Shown piece by piece: positions 2,144-18,549 of a stretch of DNA of 37,895 nucleotides (the stretch's first letter is position 1; the number at the start of each line of letters is the position of its first letter). Under the pieces are notes generated by a model. The model was not told where the DNA came from, did no database searches, and was given only the letters and a program-made list of their open reading frames with translations. Source of the DNA: Bacillota bacterium (GTDB taxonomy: Bacteria; Sysuimicrobiota; Sysuimicrobiia; Sysuimicrobiales; Segetimicrobiaceae); contig JAJPJJ010000118.1 in the NCBI GenBank assembly GCA_021324295.1, forward strand, positions 1 to 37,895, given 5' to 3'. Both the position numbers and the translations under genes were made by a program.

Positions 2144-2986
2144 CTACCCCTTCGTGGCTCCGGCCGTCCACCCGGACACGAAGTAGCTCGTAAAGAAGCT
2201 GTAGGCGAGCGCGATCGGCACCGAGGCCAGGAGCGCGGCGGCCATCAGCGATCCCCAGTAGAACACGTCGCCACGCACCAACTCGGTGAGCAGGCCCACC
2301 GTGAGGACCTTCTGCGGCGTCGACGATGTGAACGCCAGCGGGTAGATCAGGTTTCCCCACGATAGCGTGAACCCGAGCAGCACCGTGGTCAGCACCCCCG
2401 GCACGGCGACCGGAAGGACGACCCGCACCAGTGCCGCGAGGCGCGTCGCCCCATCGACCATGGCGCTCTCCTCGAGTTCCCTGGGGATGCCGCGAAAGTA
2501 GCCGATCAACAGCCAGGTGCAGAGGGGAACGATGAACGTCGGATAGGTGAGCACGAGCGCCCAATACGAGTCGATCAGGTGCAGGCGCCCCACGACCTCG
2601 GAGAGTGGCACAAACAGCAGCGTCGGCGGCACCAGGTACGTGAGGAACGTCCCGACCGCCACGCCGTCGCTCCCCCAAAACCGGATGCGAACGATGCTGT
2701 ACGCCGCGAGGACCGCGATCGCCGCCGAGCCGAGGGTCGCGAGCACAGATACGGCGACCGTGTTCCGGTACCAGAGCAGGAACGGCGTCTGCTGAAACAG
2801 GAGCGCATAGTGCTCCCCCGTGATGCCGTGACGGATCAGGAAGGGCATCGCCTGCAGGTTGTAGGTCTCTGCATCGGTCTTGAGGCTGGTGACCGCCATC
2901 CAGTAGAAGGGCAGCACGGCGAAGGCCACAAACGGGGCCAGACCGGCGTAGACCAGCAGGCGGCGCACGAACCTGCGCCTACGCAT
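2144..2986 (-). CDS. Carbohydrate ABC transporter permease, MalG-type
   Basis: A 280-residue inner-membrane permease with six hydrophobic segments. The binding-protein-dependent transport loop contains the EAA motif, here ELEESAMVDGATRLAALVRV followed by hydrophobic VLPVAVPGVL; this loop docks on the ATPase. N-terminal VLPFYWMAVTSLK and the C-terminal SWGNLIYPLAFT are typical of the second permease of CUT1 sugar importers. The ATG at 2986 overlaps the upstream permease stop by 8 bases (ATGCGTAG), with GAGGAG inside the upstream gene as ribosome-binding site. It ends the operon that starts at 9033. No ATPase gene is present, so a shared MsmK/UgpC-like ATPase elsewhere is expected. Confidence 0.92.
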   Translation of the reverse strand: MRRRRFVRRLLVYAGLAPFVAFAVLPFYWMAVTSLKTDAETYNLQAMPFLIRHGITGEHYALLFQQTPFLLWYRNTVAVSVLATLGSAAIAVLAAYSIVRIRFWGSDGVAVGTFLTYLVPPTLLFVPLSEVVGRLHLIDSYWALVLTYPTFIVPLCTWLLIGYFRGIPRELEESAMVDGATRLAALVRVVLPVAVPGVLTTVLLGFTLSWGNLIYPLAFTSSTPQKVLTVGLLTELVRGDVFYWGSLMAAALLASVPIALAYSFFTSYFVSGWTAGATKG

Positions 2987-3914
2987 ACTCCTCGCCCGCC
3001 CGCACGAGACGCAGGATGAAGAACGATGCGACGGCGAGTACGGGGAAGATGAACAGGGTGATCGCCGCGCCCCGCCCGATGAACGTGCTGACCAGACCCA
3101 CCTGGAACGCAAGCGTGCTGAACAGATGCGTCATATTCATCGGCCCGCCGCGCGTGAGGATGAACACGATCTCGAAGTCGGCGATCGTGAAGACCGTCGA
3201 GTACATCACGACGATGCTGAGGATCGGCCGCAAGAGCGGCAGGATGATCGCCCGGAACTGGACGAGCGGACCGGCCCCGTCTGTCTCCGCCGCCTCGAAC
3301 AGCTCGCGGGGGATGGCAACGAGGCCGGCCAGGAACGTGATCGCGTAGAACGGCAGGCCGCGCCAGACGTTGACGACGATGATGCCGATCCGCGCCCAGG
3401 CGGGGTCGCTCAGCCACAGGATCGGCTGCGAGATCACGCCCAGGCGCATGAGCATCCAATTGACGACGCTGTACGGCGGCGTGTACATCCACCACCAGGC
3501 AAGCGTGCTGAGCGCGGTGGGGATCACCCACGGCAGGAGGATGACCCCCCGGAAGAGCCGGCTGCCCCATGGGAGGGCGTAGAGGAGGAGAGCCAAGACG
3601 ATGCCCAGGACGGTTTTGACCCCGACGGCCACGACCGTGTACAGAACTGAGTTGATCGCGGTTTGTCGGAAGACGTCGTCGTGCAGGAGATAGACGAAGT
3701 TGCCCAGGCCGATGAAACGCCCCGGCGTCCCGACGTACTCGTCTGTCAGGCTCATGTACAGGGACATGAGAAACGGGTAGGCGATCAGGAGAATCAGGAG
3801 GAGGACGGCCGGTGCCACCATCAGGTAGCCCAGGCGTGCCTCCGCGCTCCGGCGCCTGCCGACCGCGGGGACCCGGGGCGCCGCGGTGTCGAGCGCTCCT
3901 GCGCGAACGGTCAT
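2979..3914 (-). CDS. Carbohydrate ABC transporter permease, MalF/UgpA-type
   Basis: A 311-residue permease with six membrane segments, starting after a short charged N-terminus (RRRSAEARLGYLMVAPAVLL). The EAA loop reads ELFEAAETDGAGPLVQFRAI followed by ILPLLRPIL, which is textbook for CUT1 importers. The frame is open further upstream, but ATG 3914 matches family length. It overlaps the following permease by 8 bases and should form a heterodimer with it. It is separated from the binding-protein gene by about 219 bases containing hairpins, an arrangement that usually allows the binding protein to be made in excess of the membrane parts. Confidence 0.92.
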   Translation of the reverse strand: MTVRAGALDTAAPRVPAVGRRRSAEARLGYLMVAPAVLLLILLIAYPFLMSLYMSLTDEYVGTPGRFIGLGNFVYLLHDDVFRQTAINSVLYTVVAVGVKTVLGIVLALLLYALPWGSRLFRGVILLPWVIPTALSTLAWWWMYTPPYSVVNWMLMRLGVISQPILWLSDPAWARIGIIVVNVWRGLPFYAITFLAGLVAIPRELFEAAETDGAGPLVQFRAIILPLLRPILSIVVMYSTVFTIADFEIVFILTRGGPMNMTHLFSTLAFQVGLVSTFIGRGAAITLFIFPVLAVASFFILRLVRAGEEYA

Positions 3915-4133
3915 GTGCCTGGTCCTATGAGACACGCCAGGGGTCTGCCCCTGCCATGGTGCTCCTGACACCGTCGGACGCGCCACCCCGGGGTCGGGGG
4001 GGTAGGCGCGGTGGCGACGAGCGACCACTCACCGCGGACCTTCACCGGGCCGCGCACCGAGAAGCGTGTAGGCCCACGACCCCCTCGATCTGGCCGAAGA
4101 CGGGCTCGAGATCCTCGGTGGCATCGATTGAGG
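3915..4133 (-). other. Intercistronic region with hairpins between binding protein and permeases
   Basis: This 219-base gap holds no convincing gene. On either strand CAGGGG-TCTG-CCCCTG (3938-3953) forms a 6-bp stem with a 4-base loop, 24 bases before the permease start. ACCCCGGGGT (3985-3994) is a perfect 10-base palindrome. I infer an mRNA-stabilising or attenuating element of the malE-malF kind. Confidence 0.45.
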
Positions 4134-5438
4134 CTATCCCTTCCCGTAGGCCTTCCGGAGCTCTCCTTCCGCCCACTTGATCGCCTGCGAGGTGGTCATC
4201 TGCCCGGTGACCGCCTTCGCGTACATCAGAGGGATGGTGAACAGGTTGTACGTGAGCGCCGCGCCACGGCCAGCCGGCCCCGGCCACCCGGGTACCTCGA
4301 GCGTCTCCTCGGGCGGCTCGTAGAACCGCAGGACCCGGTGCTGCTTCCAATACGGGTCGTCCGCGAGCCTGCTCAGGAAGGGCTCGTTGTACCCGAGCGA
4401 CGCCTCGACCTGCTGGTCGTACTGAGGCTTGCTGGCGAGGTACCGCACGAGGTCCTTGGCAAGCTCGATGTTCTTGCTGAACTTCCAGATCCCGAGCGAC
4501 AGCGTGCTCGTGCTGCGGAAGCGGCCTCGGGGTCCGTGGGGCATCGGGACGTGATCGAAGTCTCCCTCGATCGGGAGGTGCTTGAGGTGCGCCACGGCCC
4601 AGATGCTGGGTGGGTTCGGCGTCCAGGATCCCCGGCCGGAGAGCATCAGGTTGTTGTTCCCGGCGTCGTCCCAGCCGAGCACCTCTCGCGGCATCAGCGG
4701 AAAGAGCTTCTTCATGTACTCGATGCTGTCCGCGGTCTCCTTGGAATCGATGACTATGTCGCCCTTCTGATCGACGGTGCGACCCCCGTACGACCACAGG
4801 AGCGGGTAGAGACCATCATCGGCATCGAACGTCTGGCTCACGGCCACACCGACCGGATGGCCCATGTCGCTGAGCTGCTTCGCCGCGCCCGCCAGCCCCT
4901 CCCATGAGAGGGCCGCCACGTTTTCCGTTCCGTAGCCGATCTTCCGCCAGTACGCGGTGTTGATGACGCACGGGAAACTCCAAAAGTACCAGGGGAAAGC
5001 GATCCAACGGCCCCCTACGTAGTCGAGGTACCGGGCGAGAGGGCGAAACGGCCCCCACTGCCGTTCGAGGTCCGCCACGACGTCGTCCATCGGCACCAGA
5101 TTGCCCTCGTAGAGCGCGGCGTCGAACACCCGCAGCATGATGATATCGTGCCCGGTCTTCGACTGCGCCTCGGCGGCGATCCGCGCCGGGATATCCGCGT
5201 AGCTGACGAAGTCTACACGGGCCTCGACTCCCTTCCTCCGGCCCCACTCCGCGACCTGCCGTTCCAGGAGGGGATTGAACGAAGGGACGAAGTGGCTCCA
5301 GTGGATCATCGTCACCGTCGGGGCCCCCGCGGCCCGGACGGATGCGCCGCGCCCCGCCAGCATCAGCGGTCCGGCGGTGGCGGCTCCGGCCGCCGCCCCC
5401 GCGTACCGGAGGAACTGTCGCCGCGTGACCTTCCTCAT
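4134..5438 (-). CDS. Extracellular solute-binding protein (family 1), Tat-exported
   Basis: A 434-residue periplasmic or surface sugar-binding protein. The N-terminus has a twin-arginine signal (RRQFLRYAG) and a hydrophobic Ala/Gly stretch ending near RAAGAPT, so it probably folds before export. The body has the family-1 pattern: VTMIHWSHF, HDIIMLRVFDAALYEGNLVP, WIAFPWYFWSFPCVINTAYWRK, and the helix WEGLAGAAKQLSDMGHP. ATG 5438 overlaps the stop of the upstream CoA-transferase gene as ATGA (5435-5438), so the two are translationally coupled. It should deliver substrate to the two permeases downstream. Its association with a GH88 hydrolase suggests an oligo-uronide or other acidic glycoside, but ligand specificity cannot be read directly. 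Confidence 0.92.
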   Translation of the reverse strand: MRKVTRRQFLRYAGAAAGAATAGPLMLAGRGASVRAAGAPTVTMIHWSHFVPSFNPLLERQVAEWGRRKGVEARVDFVSYADIPARIAAEAQSKTGHDIIMLRVFDAALYEGNLVPMDDVVADLERQWGPFRPLARYLDYVGGRWIAFPWYFWSFPCVINTAYWRKIGYGTENVAALSWEGLAGAAKQLSDMGHPVGVAVSQTFDADDGLYPLLWSYGGRTVDQKGDIVIDSKETADSIEYMKKLFPLMPREVLGWDDAGNNNLMLSGRGSWTPNPPSIWAVAHLKHLPIEGDFDHVPMPHGPRGRFRSTSTLSLGIWKFSKNIELAKDLVRYLASKPQYDQQVEASLGYNEPFLSRLADDPYWKQHRVLRFYEPPEETLEVPGWPGPAGRGAALTYNLFTIPLMYAKAVTGQMTTSQAIKWAEGELRKAYGKG

Positions 5439-7045
5439 GTCTCCCGCCCCCTCTGCTCGTGGAGAACACGCGCGCTGCGCGCCCGCGTCTCCTCACGCTC
5501 AGGTTCCGTACACAGATCCGCTGCCATGAACGCAGGACCCCCGTGGGCCAGCATCGGGCGGAACTCCATCCGCCCCAGCACGTCGCCGTCGAGGTCGATG
5601 CCCGGCGCGATCTCCTCGAGCACCAGCCCCTCGGCACCGAGACGGAACACCGCCCGCTCGGTGATCACGCGCACCGTGCGCCCATCCAGGAAGCGGCGCG
5701 CCGGGAACGTCACCTGGCCCACGCGCGCCACGAACTTGCGTGTGCGGCCCTCCCGCGCAATGCGTAGCCGGCCGCCGGCGGCCACCACCTCGAGGCCTCC
5801 GGTGGTAAAGGTCCCGCAGAAGAGAAGCCGCCGCGCGGCGCGGGCGATGTTGATGAACCCCCCGCACCCGGGGATGAGGCCGGGGAGCTTCGAGACGTTC
5901 ACGTTGCCCAGCGCATCCATCTCCGCAAACGCGAGCGCCGCCACGTCGCAGTTGCCTCCGTCGATGAACGCGAACTGCGATGGCGTGTCGATGATCGCGC
6001 GCGGGTTGAGCGCTGGGCCGAATTGCAGGCCCTTCAGAGGTTTGCCTCCGTACATGCCGTGTTCGGTCAGGAATGTGAAGGCGTCGAGCCGTCCCCGGGC
6101 ATGGGCACACGTGGGAATCTCGGCCGGCGCGCCCACCCCGAGGATCACAACATCTCCCGGCTGGAGTTCGCGCAGTGCCCGGCGGGCGATGACACGCTTC
6201 GCTGCATCCGGGGTCCCGGGGTCGGGGGGCCATGGTACCCGCAGCTCGCCCGACACGCCCGGATCGTAGCGCAGGCCTGTCGCCTGAGGCTGCTCGGGGG
6301 CCACAACGATCGCGTCTACAAGGGGGCCAGGCACCCGGACCGCCAGCGGGGAGAGCGCGCCGCGTTCCGCCAGCCGTGCCACCTGGGCGATGACGGTGCC
6401 CCCCGATGAACGTGCCGCCAGGGCTTCCACGAACAGCCCGCCCGTCAGACCTTCCCGTTCGCAGGAGAGATAGCCGTCGGGATCCGCGGTGCTGCCGCGG
6501 ATGATCGACACGTTCACGGTGAAGGACGGGTAGAACAGGTACTCCCGGCCGCCAACGTCCAGGACGCTGTTGAGCGTCTCGCGGGTCCGGGCGTTCATGC
6601 GACCCCCTTCGTGCCGGGGATCGACGAACGTCCCAACGCCGACCGGCGTGATCAGGCCGGGGAGCCCGGCACCGATCGCGTGCAGCAAGTGCATCAGCGT
6701 GCCGATGGGCCAGTTATACGCTTCGACCTCGTCGGCGAGCACCATCTCGGTCAGCCGGGAACGCCGTCCTGTCATCGGGGACGTACCCATCACATAGGAC
6801 CCTGCGATCACGCGGCGCACCAAGCCGACGTGGGCGAGCCGGTCGGCGCCTGGCTGATCGAACACATCGCCCACCGCGACCGGGAGGACGAGCGTCAGGT
6901 CTCTCGGATGTCCTTCGCGCAGGAACCGCTCTTCCACCGCGGCGAGGACGTGGTCGGGCACGAGCGCGCCCGCGTCCCCGCAGACGACCACGGTATCGCC
7001 GTCCCGGATCGAAGCGACAGCCTCGGCTGCCCTGCAGACCTTCAC
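5435..7045 (-). CDS. Acyl-CoA:carboxylate CoA-transferase (propionate CoA-transferase-like)
   Basis: A 536-residue family I CoA-transferase with fused alpha and beta halves, as in propionate CoA-transferase and acetate/3-ketoacid CoA-transferases. It moves CoA between a thioester and a free acid through a glutamyl-CoA intermediate. The predicted catalytic Glu is E328 in FLTEHGMYGG, close to the position (about 324) known in propionate CoA-transferase. Other family marks are the N-terminal DGDTVVVCG, ITPVGVGTFVDPRHEGG and the C-terminal IAPGIDLDGDVL. The start is GTG 7045 with GGAGAGG upstream. It lies 21 bases after the GH88 gene and overlaps the binding-protein gene. A CoA-transferase inside a sugar-uptake operon is unusual and is treated as a finding. 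Confidence 0.9.
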   Translation of the reverse strand: MKVCRAAEAVASIRDGDTVVVCGDAGALVPDHVLAAVEERFLREGHPRDLTLVLPVAVGDVFDQPGADRLAHVGLVRRVIAGSYVMGTSPMTGRRSRLTEMVLADEVEAYNWPIGTLMHLLHAIGAGLPGLITPVGVGTFVDPRHEGGRMNARTRETLNSVLDVGGREYLFYPSFTVNVSIIRGSTADPDGYLSCEREGLTGGLFVEALAARSSGGTVIAQVARLAERGALSPLAVRVPGPLVDAIVVAPEQPQATGLRYDPGVSGELRVPWPPDPGTPDAAKRVIARRALRELQPGDVVILGVGAPAEIPTCAHARGRLDAFTFLTEHGMYGGKPLKGLQFGPALNPRAIIDTPSQFAFIDGGNCDVAALAFAEMDALGNVNVSKLPGLIPGCGGFINIARAARRLLFCGTFTTGGLEVVAAGGRLRIAREGRTRKFVARVGQVTFPARRFLDGRTVRVITERAVFRLGAEGLVLEEIAPGIDLDGDVLGRMEFRPMLAHGGPAFMAADLCTEPEREETRARSARVLHEQRGRET

Positions 7046-7066
7046 CCCGGTCCTCTCCTCACCGAA

Positions 7067-8143
7067 TCAGTACAGGAGCGCTGCCCGCGATGGCCAGACC
7101 TCTCGGAACGCGCCCTCCAGGAAGTAGTAGTCTCCGTAGATCGTCGACTCGTCGACGGCCGAGTTTCGAGGACGATCCGCGGTCGCATGCCGTACCAGGC
7201 CCTGATAGGGTTCCGGCCGGGCTTCGAAACAGTGCTCGACCAGCGCCTGCCCGAGTCGCTGTTGGGCCGCATGATCCCGAAGGAGGCCCGCGGCCGCGTA
7301 GGCCACAGCCGCCGCGGCGGCATCGCGCGGCTCATCGGGAATGGCGGGCGCTTCAAAGTCCCAGAACGGGATGGCGTCCGGCGGGAGGTGTTCGAGGAAC
7401 CAGCGCGCGCACATCACGGCAACCTCGCGGAACATGGGGATCCCGGTGTAGCGTGACAGGTTGGCGAACCCATAGGACGCCCACGCCTGACCCCGCGACC
7501 AGCAGCTGTCAGCGGAGTATCCCTGGTGCGTCCGCTTGCGCACGACTTCCCCCGTGTGCGGGTCGAACTCGACGACCTGGATGGTCGAACCGTCGGGGCG
7601 AACGTGCTCCACGGCGATCTTCCTGGCAACGGCGAGGGCAGCCTCGCGCCATTCCCCCCGCCCGGCCTCCCCGGCGGCCCACACGAGCAGCGGGAGGTTG
7701 GCCACACTATCGACGATCTGAAGCCCCTCGCACTCCGGAGCTCCCTCCTCGTCCCAGGCCGGCAGGAACGGTCCCTGTGGCCGGTAGCGGCTGTACAGCG
7801 ATCGGGCGGCCTCGAGCGCGAGGTCTTTGAACCACGGATCCCCGGTGATCCTGTACCCCGTCACGCAGCTCGGGCCGAAGAGGAACCCCATATCATGGGT
7901 CGTGGTATCCGCCGCGCGCGGAGCGAGGCGCCGGGTCCATCGATACGCCGCCTCGCGGAACGCCGGAGCGCTCGTGTGCAGGTACGCGAGCCACAGGAGC
8001 CCGATCCAGAAGCCCCCGGTCCAGCGGCCATGCTCCCCTGTGCGCCAACGGCCTGCCCGGGTCGTATGAGGGAAGGCCGGCAAGACACGCTCCAGGTGCT
8101 CCAGCTTGGCGCAGGCGATGTCCAGGACGCCTCGCGGGCTCAC
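7067..8143 (-). CDS. GH88 family unsaturated glucuronyl hydrolase-like protein
   Basis: A 358-residue (alpha/alpha)6-barrel protein of glycoside hydrolase family 88. Known members hydrate the vinyl-ether bond of unsaturated uronic-acid oligosaccharides made by polysaccharide lyases, releasing 4-deoxy-5-keto-uronate. Both acidic residues match the Bacillus enzyme: D84 in THDMGF (D88) and D145 in IVDSVANLPLLVWA (D149). WTGGFWIGLLW, THQGY and SCWSRGQAW also match the substrate pocket. No signal peptide is seen, so it acts in the cytoplasm on imported sugars. GTG 8143 overlaps the crotonase stop as GTGA (8140-8143); the frame is open upstream but lacks family resemblance there. No lyase gene is in the window. 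Confidence 0.9.
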   Translation of the reverse strand: MSPRGVLDIACAKLEHLERVLPAFPHTTRAGRWRTGEHGRWTGGFWIGLLWLAYLHTSAPAFREAAYRWTRRLAPRAADTTTHDMGFLFGPSCVTGYRITGDPWFKDLALEAARSLYSRYRPQGPFLPAWDEEGAPECEGLQIVDSVANLPLLVWAAGEAGRGEWREAALAVARKIAVEHVRPDGSTIQVVEFDPHTGEVVRKRTHQGYSADSCWSRGQAWASYGFANLSRYTGIPMFREVAVMCARWFLEHLPPDAIPFWDFEAPAIPDEPRDAAAAAVAYAAAGLLRDHAAQQRLGQALVEHCFEARPEPYQGLVRHATADRPRNSAVDESTIYGDYYFLEGAFREVWPSRAALLY

Positions 8144-9033
8144 CGGTGCGGCTCCTCCCACTCCGGCTGCCCTCCCCGGTCCCGCGATGAACGGCGTCGG
8201 ATAAACGCAGCCACGGCGCGCCGCTGCTCCTCCGTCTTGCAGCACTGGCCGACCGCGTCGGCCTCCGCCCTCAACCCCTCGGTCAGGGGGCGCTCCTCGG
8301 CGTCCCAGACCAGGCGCTTGGCCAGGGCCAGCGCCGTCGCCGACCGTTCGCTCAGGTCGCGCGCGAGTGCGCGCGCAGCCGAGAGCACCTGATCCGCCGG
8401 TACAAGCTGCGTGATGAGGCCTGTCGCCATCATGGCGCCGGCCGGCCAGCGGGCTCCGCTGAGGACAACCCAGGCGGCCCGGGGCCTGCCGAGCAGCCGC
8501 GGGAGCACTTGGCTGCCGCCCCACCCCGGCACGTTCGCCAGCGTGATCTCCGGATGGCAGAAGACCGCGTCTTCTGCGGCGACAACGAGATCGCACCACT
8601 GGACGAGCTCGAACCCGCCGCCAAGCGCGTAGCCGCGGACCGCCGCCACGACCGGCTGGGGCAAACGACTCAGCCGCCTGAAGACTGCTTGGCCGTAGCG
8701 CATCTGCGCGACCGCGGCTTCGGGGGACAAGCGCGCGAGCTCGTAGACGTCCGCTCCCGTCGAGAAGGCCCGGTCACCCCGGCCGGTCACGATGACGCAC
8801 CGGACGGAGGTGTCGGCCTCGATCTGGGCGATCGCACGATCCAGGTCCACGAGCGTGGCCCGGTCGATAGCGTTCAGCACGCGAGGACGGTTGAGGGTGA
8901 GCGTCGCGATTCCCGGTTCGCGTTCAACAAGAATGCGCGCGGGTTCTGCGGGTCTCCGTCCGGGGTTCTTCCCTTCCACGCCGTCTGCCCTCAGCCCGTC
9001 GCCCGAAGTCTCCTTGGCAGTGGGGTGAGCCAC
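8140..9033 (-). CDS. Enoyl-CoA hydratase/isomerase family protein (crotonase)
   Basis: A crotonase-fold protein of up to 297 residues and first gene of the minus-strand operon. It has the oxyanion-hole motifs STGADVYEL and YALGGGFELVQWCD, and HPEITLANVPGWGG. Both glutamates used by hydratases are present: E142 in GGGFE and E162 in HPE. Hydratase or hydratase-lyase activity on an acyl-CoA is therefore plausible. The first 32 residues are poorly conserved and low-complexity. GTG 9033 follows a GGGAGGG that sits in a 7-bp hairpin (9037-9054), and a second GTG at about 8979 is possible. The CoA-transferase two genes downstream could supply its CoA-ester substrate. Confidence 0.9.
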   Translation of the reverse strand: MAHPTAKETSGDGLRADGVEGKNPGRRPAEPARILVEREPGIATLTLNRPRVLNAIDRATLVDLDRAIAQIEADTSVRCVIVTGRGDRAFSTGADVYELARLSPEAAVAQMRYGQAVFRRLSRLPQPVVAAVRGYALGGGFELVQWCDLVVAAEDAVFCHPEITLANVPGWGGSQVLPRLLGRPRAAWVVLSGARWPAGAMMATGLITQLVPADQVLSAARALARDLSERSATALALAKRLVWDAEERPLTEGLRAEADAVGQCCKTEEQRRAVAAFIRRRSSRDRGGQPEWEEPHR

Positions 9034-9036
9034 TCG

Positions 9037-9054
9037 GGGAGGGCCTGCCCTCCC
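9037..9054 (-). promoter_or_regulatory. 5' leader hairpin at the crotonase start
   Basis: GGGAGGG (minus strand, 9054-9048), CAGG loop, CCCTCCC form a perfect 7-bp stem in the short leader. The GGGAGGG arm is the only strong Shine-Dalgarno-like sequence before GTG 9033, so the hairpin may limit translation. Role inferred. Confidence 0.45.
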
Positions 9055-9060
9055 GTGGGG

Positions 9061-9089
9061 TTGGACATGTGATATTATATACGTATGTA
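9061..9089 (+). promoter_or_regulatory. Probable promoter of the gntR gene, overlapping the operon promoter
   Basis: TTGGAC (9061-9066), 17 bases, TATGTA (9084-9089) on the plus strand, facing opposite to the operon promoter in the same AT-rich patch. The -10 is weaker than that of the divergent promoter. Overlap with TGTAGTTACA suggests autoregulation. Confidence 0.5.
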
Positions 9090-9102
9090 GTTACAATAGC
9101 AA
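9074..9102 (-). promoter_or_regulatory. Sigma-70 promoter of the crotonase-GH88-CoA transferase-ABC operon
   Basis: Reading the minus strand, TTGCTA (9102-9097), a 17-base spacer and a perfect TATAAT (9079-9074). Transcription should start near 9067, about 34 bases before GTG 9033. The spacer contains TGTA-GT-TACA (9086-9095), a likely GntR-family operator. Confidence 0.8.
9086..9095. promoter_or_regulatory. Candidate GntR operator TGTA-GT-TACA
   Basis: A short inverted repeat (TGTA/TACA) between two opposed promoters. The GntA/TAC-like half-sites and the central position fit HutC-type regulators, which often bind a GT..TAC-type palindrome. An adjacent perfect palindrome ATACGTAT (9079-9086) is an alternative or second site. 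Prediction only. Confidence 0.45.
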
Positions 9103-9135
9103 CCCCACCATACCGCCCCAGGAGCGTCGACGCAC

Positions 9136-9873
9136 ATGAGCGATGAAGCCGTGTACGCTGACCCGTCGCCCGCCTACTTCAAGGTGCAGCGCCACCTCGT
9201 CAGCCAGATAGACCGTGGCGTGTTCAAACCAGGCGATCCGGTCCCCACCGAAGCCGAGATCTGCAAACGCTACGGTGTCAGCCGGACCACCGCACGGCGA
9301 GCCCTCGCCGAGCTCATGCGGGACGGCCGAGTGTTCCGGCCAACGCCGCGAGGGCGGCTGCACGTGGTCCGCGGCCCTGTGGATCAGCAGTTGCTACGGT
9401 TCGTGGGATTCTTCACGGAGGACCTCCTCGCCAGGGGACTTCGTCACGAAGCGCAGGTGCTATCTGCAGAGTGGGTGCCCGCCGCCGCAGCTCCCTCCGT
9501 GCTCCGCCTCGGCGCTCCCGAGAGGGTTGCCCTCATCACCCGGTTGCACCGGGGCGGAGACGTGCCCATGGCGCTCCAACGGTCCTACCTCCCGGGCGAT
9601 CTCTTTCCAGATATCCTGGCCCAGAACCTGAGCGGGTCGCTCCTCGAGCTCGTCGAAGCTCGCTACGGCCTGCGCTTCGTGCGGGCCAGCCAACACCTTC
9701 GCGCACGCCTGCCGGCTCGGCACGAGCAGTTGATCTTGCAGATTCCGCACAGCCTCCCGGTCTTCGTCGTCGAGCGAACCAGCTTCGACGAACGTGGGCG
9801 TGCGTTGGAGCATCTCGTGAGCGTGCTGCCCTCGGACCGCTACAACTTCAGGATGGAACTGAGTCGGTCGTAG
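9136..9873 (+). CDS. GntR family regulator, HutC subfamily (UTRA domain)
   Basis: A 245-residue transcription factor. Residues about 13-80 form the winged helix-turn-helix, with PTEAEICKRYGVSRTTARRA as the recognition part. Residues about 88-240 form a UTRA ligand-binding domain (RFVGFFTEDLLARG at its start, FVVERTSFDERGRALEH and SDRYNFRMEL near its end). HutC-type UTRA domains usually bind a sugar, sugar phosphate or pathway intermediate and release DNA. The gene is divergent from the operon starting at 9033, with both promoters and a palindrome in the 102-base gap, so it is very likely the local repressor and its inducer the imported glycoside or a product of it. ATG 9136 has GGAG upstream. 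Confidence 0.93.
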   Translation: MSDEAVYADPSPAYFKVQRHLVSQIDRGVFKPGDPVPTEAEICKRYGVSRTTARRALAELMRDGRVFRPTPRGRLHVVRGPVDQQLLRFVGFFTEDLLARGLRHEAQVLSAEWVPAAAAPSVLRLGAPERVALITRLHRGGDVPMALQRSYLPGDLFPDILAQNLSGSLLELVEARYGLRFVRASQHLRARLPARHEQLILQIPHSLPVFVVERTSFDERGRALEHLVSVLPSDRYNFRMELSRS

Positions 9874-16825: not shown

Positions 16826-18549
16826 AGCCGCCCGATCGCACCCCGGGCGCGGTCAGGTCCCAGGTCCCGCGCGCATTCGCCGTCCCCGCCGCGGGGCCGC
16901 GCCCGCCCGTGGGGCGGCCGGCGCCCTGGGAAGGCACGGACCTCCCGCCGGGCGTCTACCGGTGGGGCGTCGCCGCCGCGACCGCGCTCGGCGCGGCCCT
17001 CCGCTTGGCCCACGTCGCGCGGCCGTTCAACCGGTTGATGGCCTGGAACGAGGGCCACTACGCGATGATCGCCCTGAACTTCGACCGGTACGGCCCCTGG
17101 GTCCAGCACAACGAGCTGGGGATCGATCGCACGTTTTCGCCGGGCGTGCCGTGGCTGATCTGGGCGTCGTTTCGGCTCTTCGGCCCGACCGAGTGGGCGG
17201 CGCGCCTGCCGATCGTGCTCAGCGGGATCGCGGCCGTGGCCCTGCTCGCCGCGCTCGTCCGCCGCCTGTTGCGCAGCGAGCAGATCGCGCTCGTCACCGC
17301 GGCGTTCGCCGCGTGTGCTCCCGGCCTCGTCTACTTCGCCCAGAACGTCCAGCTCGACACCCCGAGCATCTGCTGTGCGCTGGGCGCCGCGGCGCTGCTG
17401 CTGCGATACCGGGAGACGCACCGCCGCCGGGACCTCGCCGGGGCGGGCGTATGGCTCGCGGCCGCGGTGTGGTTCAAGTTCACGGCCGCGCTGCTGTACC
17501 CGGCGTTCCTCGCCATCTGGTGGCCGGCCCGCCCCGCGCGGACGCGCGAGGCCGTCGTCGAGGCCGCCGCGTTCATCGGTCTCACGGCGCTCCCCAGCCT
17601 CGTGTGGATCGCATCGGGGTGGCTCGCATCGTCCGGCGCGGCCGCCGCGCCGTCCGTGTTTACCTGGCGGTTCTTCCACCGGGATTGGGACCTCCGCGGG
17701 CTTGCCAAGGCGTTCTCCGAGGTCCCGCTCGCCGTGGAGGCGCACCTGTTCGCGCCGATGTTTCTCCTGCTGTTCGTGGGCATCCCGCTCGCCGCCCGGT
17801 GGCGCGCGCGGCTGCGCGAGCTGTGGATATGGTGCGCGCCGTGGGCGATCCCGTACCTGCTGGCGCCATGGGACAGCCTGGTCAACCGGTACTACGATCT
17901 GCCGGTCACCTACCTGCTGACCGCGCTGGCCGCGCTCGGCCTCTGGAAGATGCGCGGGGGGCCGCGTGCCCGGCCGGCCGCCGGCGGGGACCCCGAGCGG
18001 CCCCGCGACGGGGAACGCCCGGCCGCGGGGCGAGGGGCCGTCGCCGCGCTTCCCCGCCCGCTCCTGGCCGGGCTCGTCTTCGTGGTAGCCGTCACCGTGC
18101 TCTACGATGCGCTCGACCCGATGATCGACGCGGTCGCGCGGGCGACGATGGCCCATGCGGCGCCGGTCGACCCCAGCCCCTTCTACTCGGCCAAGATCGT
18201 CGCCAGGCTGCCGCGGGGCCGGACGATCGTGGATACGCCCCAGACGATGTTCTACGCGGGCGGGGATCCCGCCTGGATCGAGATCACGGGCGGCGACGTG
18301 CGGTGGAAGATCGACGGCGAGGAGTTCGACTACATCGTCCTCAACGACTACGGCCACGGGCAGGAGCCGTACTACGCGATCGACGCGGCGCTGCGCGCGC
18401 AGCTCGCGCGGCACCACTACATCCAGATCGCACCGGCCGCGTGGGCGCACGAGCGCACGGCGGTCGCCGATCTCGGCGGCTACCGCGATCCCCGCACGGC
18501 CTCCTGGTCGCCCGCGCCGCCCCGCCCGGGCGGGGCGGCGCTCCCCTAG
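16822..18549 (+). CDS. GT39-like (ArnT/PMT-type) integral membrane glycosyltransferase
   Basis: A 575-residue GT-C-fold membrane protein with about ten hydrophobic segments and a soluble C-terminal tail. The first extracytoplasmic loop has WNEGHYAMIALNF, at the place where family members have the catalytic acidic pair; here the pair reads Asn-Glu. RTFSPGVPWLIW and the WDSLVNRYYDLPVTYL helix fit the ArnT/PMT group, which transfers sugars from polyprenyl-phosphate donors to lipids or proteins outside the membrane. GTG 16822 overlaps the tyrS stop (GTGA). The N-terminal 40 residues are Pro/Arg-rich and poorly conserved. Its last codons include a 28-base perfect palindrome (18514-18541). Acceptor unknown. 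Confidence 0.8.
   Translation: MKPPDRTPGAVRSQVPRAFAVPAAGPRPPVGRPAPWEGTDLPPGVYRWGVAAATALGAALRLAHVARPFNRLMAWNEGHYAMIALNFDRYGPWVQHNELGIDRTFSPGVPWLIWASFRLFGPTEWAARLPIVLSGIAAVALLAALVRRLLRSEQIALVTAAFAACAPGLVYFAQNVQLDTPSICCALGAAALLLRYRETHRRRDLAGAGVWLAAAVWFKFTAALLYPAFLAIWWPARPARTREAVVEAAAFIGLTALPSLVWIASGWLASSGAAAAPSVFTWRFFHRDWDLRGLAKAFSEVPLAVEAHLFAPMFLLLFVGIPLAARWRARLRELWIWCAPWAIPYLLAPWDSLVNRYYDLPVTYLLTALAALGLWKMRGGPRARPAAGGDPERPRDGERPAAGRGAVAALPRPLLAGLVFVVAVTVLYDALDPMIDAVARATMAHAAPVDPSPFYSAKIVARLPRGRTIVDTPQTMFYAGGDPAWIEITGGDVRWKIDGEEFDYIVLNDYGHGQEPYYAIDAALRAQLARHHYIQIAPAAWAHERTAVADLGGYRDPRTASWSPAPPRPGGAALP
18514..18541. repeat. 28-base perfect palindrome at the end of the GT39 gene
   Basis: Two 14-base arms (GCGCCGCCCCGCCC and its complement) meet without a spacer. 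Folded, this gives a roughly 12-bp GC-only stem with a 4-base loop, ending 8 bases before the stop codon and 30 bases before the tRNA promoter. It may end tyrS-GT39 transcription although no T-run follows. Confidence 0.6.

Follow-up and report, generated by a model that had tools for sequence, protein, structure and literature searches.

Organization of the operon and its enzymes

The window analyzed here is a stretch of 37,895 nt comprising contig JAJPJJ010000118.1 of the Bacillota bacterium assembly GCA_021324295.1 (family Segetimicrobiaceae). It features an operon, encoded entirely on the minus strand, for a crotonase, a GH88 enzyme, a class I CoA-transferase, and the binding protein and two permeases of a CUT1 importer. 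The crotonase-family enoyl-CoA hydratase gene (8140–9033; PF00378, 183.6 bits), whose product is proposed below to be a uronyl-CoA dehydratase, overlaps the GTG-initiated gene for a 358-aa GH88 unsaturated-uronyl hydrolase (7067–8143) in an exact GTGA at 8140–8143, where the crotonase stop meets the GH88 start. The CoA-transferase gene (5435–7045; PF01144, 101.6 bits) begins 21 nt past the GH88 stop and encodes a YdiF/FadX-type enzyme with both domains in a single chain. An equally exact ATGA overlap (5435–5438) joins it to the gene for the solute-binding protein (4134–5438; PF01547, 67.6 bits), which carries a twin-arginine-type signal. After a gap of 219 bp follow two overlapping permease genes (both PF00528), one MalF/UgpA-like (2979–3914, chosen start ATG 3914) and one MalG/UgpE-like (2144–2986, chosen start ATG 2986). 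The binding protein and two permeases that define a CUT1 importer are all present, and no ABC ATPase gene was found within 2144–9873; it is common for ATPases to be shared among ABC importers. The best solved relative of the binding protein is the maltose-binding protein MalE3 (6dtq). Relatives of this protein were also considered as a clue to its ligand, and the neighborhood concerned (L045), with SIS-domain and amidohydrolase genes, was uninformative.

Divergent from the operon, on the plus strand, lies a gene for a HutC-type regulator (9136–9873) with both the UTRA (PF07702, 109 bits) and GntR (PF00392, 54 bits) domains; its score of 95 bits falls below the cut-off of 220 for the HutC equivalog TIGR02018. 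Directly upstream of the crotonase GTG start is a G+C-rich 18-bp near-palindrome, GGGAGGGCCTGCCCTCCC (9037–9054), in which 16 of the 18 positions agree with the reverse complement and which is a candidate operator. An earlier note made from the DNA alone had described this combination of crotonase, GH88, CoA-transferase, CUT1 importer, and HutC-type regulator, and both the gene positions and the two overlaps are confirmed. Since several of the scanned window genes outside the operon are housekeeping genes, among them those for RuvA, RuvB, YebC, and a class A penicillin-binding protein, the contig looks like host chromosome.

Judging from their conserved residues, the three enzymes look intact apart from one substitution in GH88. 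The GH88 protein passes the Pfam model PF07470 (31.2 bits vs. a cut-off of 26.6), and its AlphaFold model (pLDDT 91) finds its best structural match in UGL of Bacillus sp. GL1 (1vd5; TM 0.90, E 3.5e-26). It resembles that enzyme in fold and in keeping the catalytic Asp88 and Asp149 along with the Gln211, Trp219, Arg221, and Trp225 positions (GL1 numbering), whereas it has Gln in place of His193, a single position not known as family-defining, and differs further in that no lyase partner was found and CoA enzymes are joined to it. The crotonase scores over the ECH_1 cut-off, has both catalytic Glu residues, and is the sister of a crotonase from Embleya (Actinomycetota) in the tree. The CoA-transferase matches E. 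coli YdiF (2ahu; phmmer E 3e-103), with a Glu that aligns with that of the YdiF motif, and has a 501-residue match to the FadX model, although at 296 bits it remains below the curated cut-off of 750 for the FadX equivalog NF052271. The earlier note had labeled this protein a PCT-like CoA-transferase; YdiF/FadX type describes it better. No class III (CaiB-type) transferase is found in the window operon, the transferase there being class I.

GH88 loci with and without CoA genes

The 4.02-Mb genome from which the window derives has a single class I CoA-transferase, about 10 CaiB-type transferases, and about 14 crotonases. The probability that a given gene has one of these within 2 kb by chance is approximately 0.001 for the class I CoA-transferase and 0.014 for a crotonase, two figures that are not independent since CoA-transferase/hydratase pairs are common. 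The only other GH88 gene of this genome (contig 73, L012) overlaps a CaiB-type CoA-transferase gene and adjoins an opposite-strand importer of the RbsB/RbsA/RbsC type (CUT2-type) and a crotonase gene. In that crotonase (17051–17803) an Ile replaces the first catalytic Glu, and the enzyme may be an isomerase or one that uses a single acid/base. In a sister genus (L013), a MaoC–GH88–TRAP importer cluster is divergent from a CaiB–crotonase pair. Genes for 3-oxo-tetronate kinase and 3-oxo-tetronate 4-phosphate decarboxylase, both above curated cut-offs, lie near this cluster (4257–6142 of L013). Taken together, the window and these two loci show GH88 joined, within one family, to CoA-transferases of two unrelated classes and to importers of three types. 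Another genome of the family has consecutive MaoC, class I CoA-transferase, and crotonase genes (L043:1917–4973), on a short contig that has no GH88. A second locus combining GH88 with a class I CoA-transferase was not found among the 43 genomes of a phylum-wide search.

Outside the phylum, an Embleya plasmid (L065) carries, in order, genes for an IclR-like regulator, a CUT2-type importer, an aldehyde dehydrogenase, a class I CoA-transferase, a crotonase, and GH88, and the run continues with a KDPG aldolase-like protein, a KDG kinase-like protein, and a GMC oxidoreductase. Its class I CoA-transferase is 45% identical to that of the window and its crotonase 47%, the closest among those found. 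The aldolase and kinase score below the NCBIfam curated cut-offs, and Pfam assigns them to PF01081 and PfkB. The Embleya locus is the best functional clue, as the CoA step lies there between sugar import and keto-deoxy-sugar catabolism. Within the clade of GH88 proteins that keep Asp88 (clade A), the CoA-linked enzymes of the window, of the L012/L013 pair, and of Embleya form separate lineages, with the long branch of the Embleya GH88 leaving its placement unsure; a Streptomyces record (L066) is very divergent and carries no weight. The co-occurrence of GH88 with a CoA-transferase and a crotonase, which the earlier note proposed to look for, thus recurs in the same genome, the sister genus, and Embleya, and the link is not a local accident. 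An archaeal plasmid, from Halomontanus rarus (L063:6211–15474), encodes an AMP-ligase, a crotonase, GH88, DeoC, a ribokinase, a D-ribose pyranase, and a CUT2-type importer, and a ribose- or deoxyribose-containing conjugate is a possible substrate of this locus.

GH88 also occurs without CoA genes. In two Lachnospiraceae, which hold the nearest relatives of the window GH88, the gene precedes a TRAP importer and CoA genes are missing; the locus annotated further (L003) also has a rhamnulokinase-like gene and a regulator of the DeoR type. In Rhizobium etli and Agrobacterium vitis, GH88 is accompanied by CUT1 permeases and a binding protein, as in the window, while heparinase II/III is present and CoA genes are absent. 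In an order-level relative of the window genome (L014), GH88 lies inside a branched-chain-type importer cluster in which no CoA genes were detected. Conversely, class I CoA-transferase genes beside crotonase or MaoC genes are common without GH88. The earlier note had regarded relatives that keep GH88 and a transporter and lack the CoA genes as evidence against its reading, and the Lachnospiraceae and rhizobial loci are such cases: GH88 as such can do without the CoA genes. Viewed together with the order-level locus, they argue that GH88 is a shared last step, for which the CoA genes are one way of supply among others.

A possible CoA-dependent route to the GH88 substrate

We propose that a saturated uronide is imported and dehydrated via CoA to the GH88 substrate inside the cell, with no polysaccharide lyase required, a reading whose chances we put just short of even. 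The substrate, the first three steps, and the order of events are deduced from the chemistry of the enzyme families. The importer would take up a saturated uronic-acid conjugate, such as a glucuronide, an aldobiuronic acid, or a glycoside oxidized to one; the Embleya locus might form the uronide from a neutral glycoside by means of its aldehyde dehydrogenase and GMC oxidoreductase. The C6 carboxylate would then receive CoA from the CoA-transferase, and the crotonase would eliminate water between C4 and C5, taking the alpha hydrogen C5-H, made acidic by the activation, and the beta hydroxyl C4-OH, to give a 4,5-unsaturated uronyl-CoA. A 4,5-unsaturated uronide is in effect an alpha-alkoxy acrylate, and its formation from uronyl-CoA would be the crotonase reaction in reverse. 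Next, the CoA-transferase would pass the CoA to the next substrate and free the unsaturated uronide, so that the CoA could be reused as it could not be with a ligase and a thioesterase. Finally, GH88 would hydrate the enol ether at C5, whereupon the ring opens and the aglycone leaves; this last step is expected to be practically irreversible and would thus draw the unfavorable dehydration forward. The resulting 4-deoxy-5-keto-uronate would enter keto-deoxy-sugar catabolism. Arg221 is the carboxylate-binding residue of UGL, and its retention in the window GH88 fits a free acid as the GH88 substrate and hence a return of CoA by the transferase.

Two known systems offer partial parallels. In ulvan degradation, P29_PDnc dehydrates saturated ends (GlcA/IdoA) and so makes the unsaturated residue that GH105 needs (PMC8511951). 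The proposed logic is the same, in that a saturated non-reducing-end uronate is dehydrated and then hydrated and released, whereas P29_PDnc is seemingly cofactor-independent as reported (PMC8511951) and the window enzymes are unrelated and would act through CoA activation; by this analogy, the window route would be a CoA-cycling counterpart of P29_PDnc and GH105. In carnitine metabolism, CoA is cycled by a transferase during (de)hydration by CaiB/CaiD (PMC2131755). The window would likewise combine CoA-transferase cycling with a crotonase acting on a beta-hydroxy acid, and the transferases of L012 and L013 are themselves of the CaiB type; that of the window, however, is class I (YdiF type), and its proposed substrate is a uronide. 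A literature search found no title or abstract on GH88 with a CoA-transferase or an acyl-CoA dehydrogenase, nor on uronyl-CoA. In the literature searched, which leaves most subscription journals outside, the route seems not to have been described, in agreement with the earlier suggestion of an undescribed catabolic route; the association of GH88 with CoA genes on which that suggestion was based is real and recurs in other taxa.

Several observations count against the CoA route. The earlier note had stated that no keto-deoxy-sugar enzymes are present, which is true of the operon, and KduI (PF04962) is absent from the genome; a KDPG aldolase is nonetheless encoded once elsewhere in it. As the KdgD-like proteins of this genome also score below the curated cut-off, any breakdown of 5-keto-4-deoxy-uronate there is conjectural. 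The missing first Glu of the L012 crotonase, the Gln at position 193 of the window GH88, the nearest GH88 relatives with no CoA genes, and the many CoA-transferase/hydratase pairs without GH88 point in the same direction.

An alternative along the lines of the earlier note, whose interpretation is overall partly supported, has GH88 release a carboxylic acid, as aglycone or side chain, that is activated by the CoA-transferase and then hydrated by the crotonase on the way to beta-oxidation. The two enzymes do belong to beta-oxidation families, and acyl-CoA dehydrogenase and acyl-CoA synthetase genes are also found in GH88 operons of the clade lacking Asp88 (clade B, below). The window operon, however, has no ligase, 3-hydroxyacyl-CoA dehydrogenase, or thiolase, the place of such genes is taken in Embleya by those for a KDPG aldolase-like and a KDG kinase-like protein, and clade A importers are mostly of the sugar type. 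The absence of these enzymes and the presence of the Embleya genes make the sugar acid the more probable CoA substrate, and the aglycone-acid reading, while it retains some weight, is unlikely. It is also conceivable, if rather improbable, that the CoA enzymes act downstream of GH88, on 5-keto-4-deoxy-uronate or a derived acid, and so replace the missing KduI/KduD route. The lack of KduI in this genome would agree with such a role, as would the Bradyrhizobium clusters in which genes for an alpha-ketoglutaric-semialdehyde-dehydrogenase-like protein and AraD1 or DHDPS-family genes lie near GH88. Embleya, however, carries its aldolase-like and kinase-like genes on top of the CoA genes, and an alpha-keto acid should be a poor crotonase substrate by the known mechanism.

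There is a slim chance that a generic CoA-transferase/crotonase pair is fortuitously co-transcribed with a GH88-importer operon. Such pairs are widely reused, but the link to GH88 turns up in three or more clade A lineages as well as in clade B and one archaeon, and no CoA genes of the CoA-transferase/crotonase type were found in seven CUT1 control loci without GH88 from the same phylum (101 kb). GH88 loci and control loci differ in a Fisher test (p 0.01) on a small, hand-counted set, a result that carries no weight. Least probable by our estimate, and very doubtful, is that the CoA-transferase and crotonase rehydrate imported unsaturated uronides to saturated ones with GH88 as a parallel branch: the crotonase equilibrium lies toward hydration and the window crotonase has both Glu residues, but GH88 would consume the unsaturated uronide directly, and no lyase was found as supplier, there being no polysaccharide lyase gene in the operon and no heparinase-type lyase (PF07940) in the genome, with a Lyase_8 (PF02278) search of the genome uninformative as its control itself gave no match anywhere.

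If the proposed dehydration of imported uronides is right, it explains the retention of GH88 in some bacteria without a recognized lyase partner and adds a CoA-based way to cleave glucuronide-type conjugates, one for which the anomeric configuration should not matter.

GH88 proteins that lack Asp88

In the divergent clade B, which belongs to Proteobacteria and Rhodococcus, Asp88 is replaced by Phe and Gln211 by Lys. Its hosts include Cupriavidus, Azospirillum, Rhodococcus, Aminobacter, Agrobacterium, Bradyrhizobium, Afipia, and Pseudorhodoplanes (loci L053, L060, L054, L062, L061, L056, L005, L006, L008, L055, L057, and L059). Here GH88 lies beside CoA-transferases, mostly together with an acyl-CoA dehydrogenase or a crotonase/MaoC-type hydratase, and iron alcohol dehydrogenase and ligase genes are frequent. 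These GH88 proteins are possibly enol-ether hydratases and not glycosidases.

A wider strategy of CoA-dependent ether and glycoside cleavage, widespread and so far undescribed, can tentatively be outlined, though it is less likely than not. A carboxylate next to an ether oxygen would be thioesterified, and a C=C bond beside the ether would come either from dehydration, by a crotonase or MaoC, or from the action of an acyl-CoA dehydrogenase; hydration of this enol ether by a GH88-family enzyme would then break the C–O bond. The window would be the glycoside version of this chemistry; for the clade without Asp88, the substrates would be cyclic ethers that are not glycosides, for instance tetrahydrofuroate. 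If correct, this provides a testable function for that clade, whose members in pollutant-degrading bacteria carry the annotation of glycoside hydrolases.

Tetrahydrofurfuryl alcohol is degraded by Cupriavidus necator JMP134 (PMC2842291). On a plasmid of C. pinatubonensis, the GH88 operon encodes an acyl-CoA synthetase, an acyl-CoA dehydrogenase, MaoC, and a CoA-transferase, as well as an alcohol dehydrogenase of the 4-hydroxybutyrate-dehydrogenase type and an aldehyde dehydrogenase. As a hypothesis, this gene set would suit the conversion of tetrahydrofuroate via dihydrofuroate and 2-oxo-5-hydroxyvalerate to 2-oxoglutarate.
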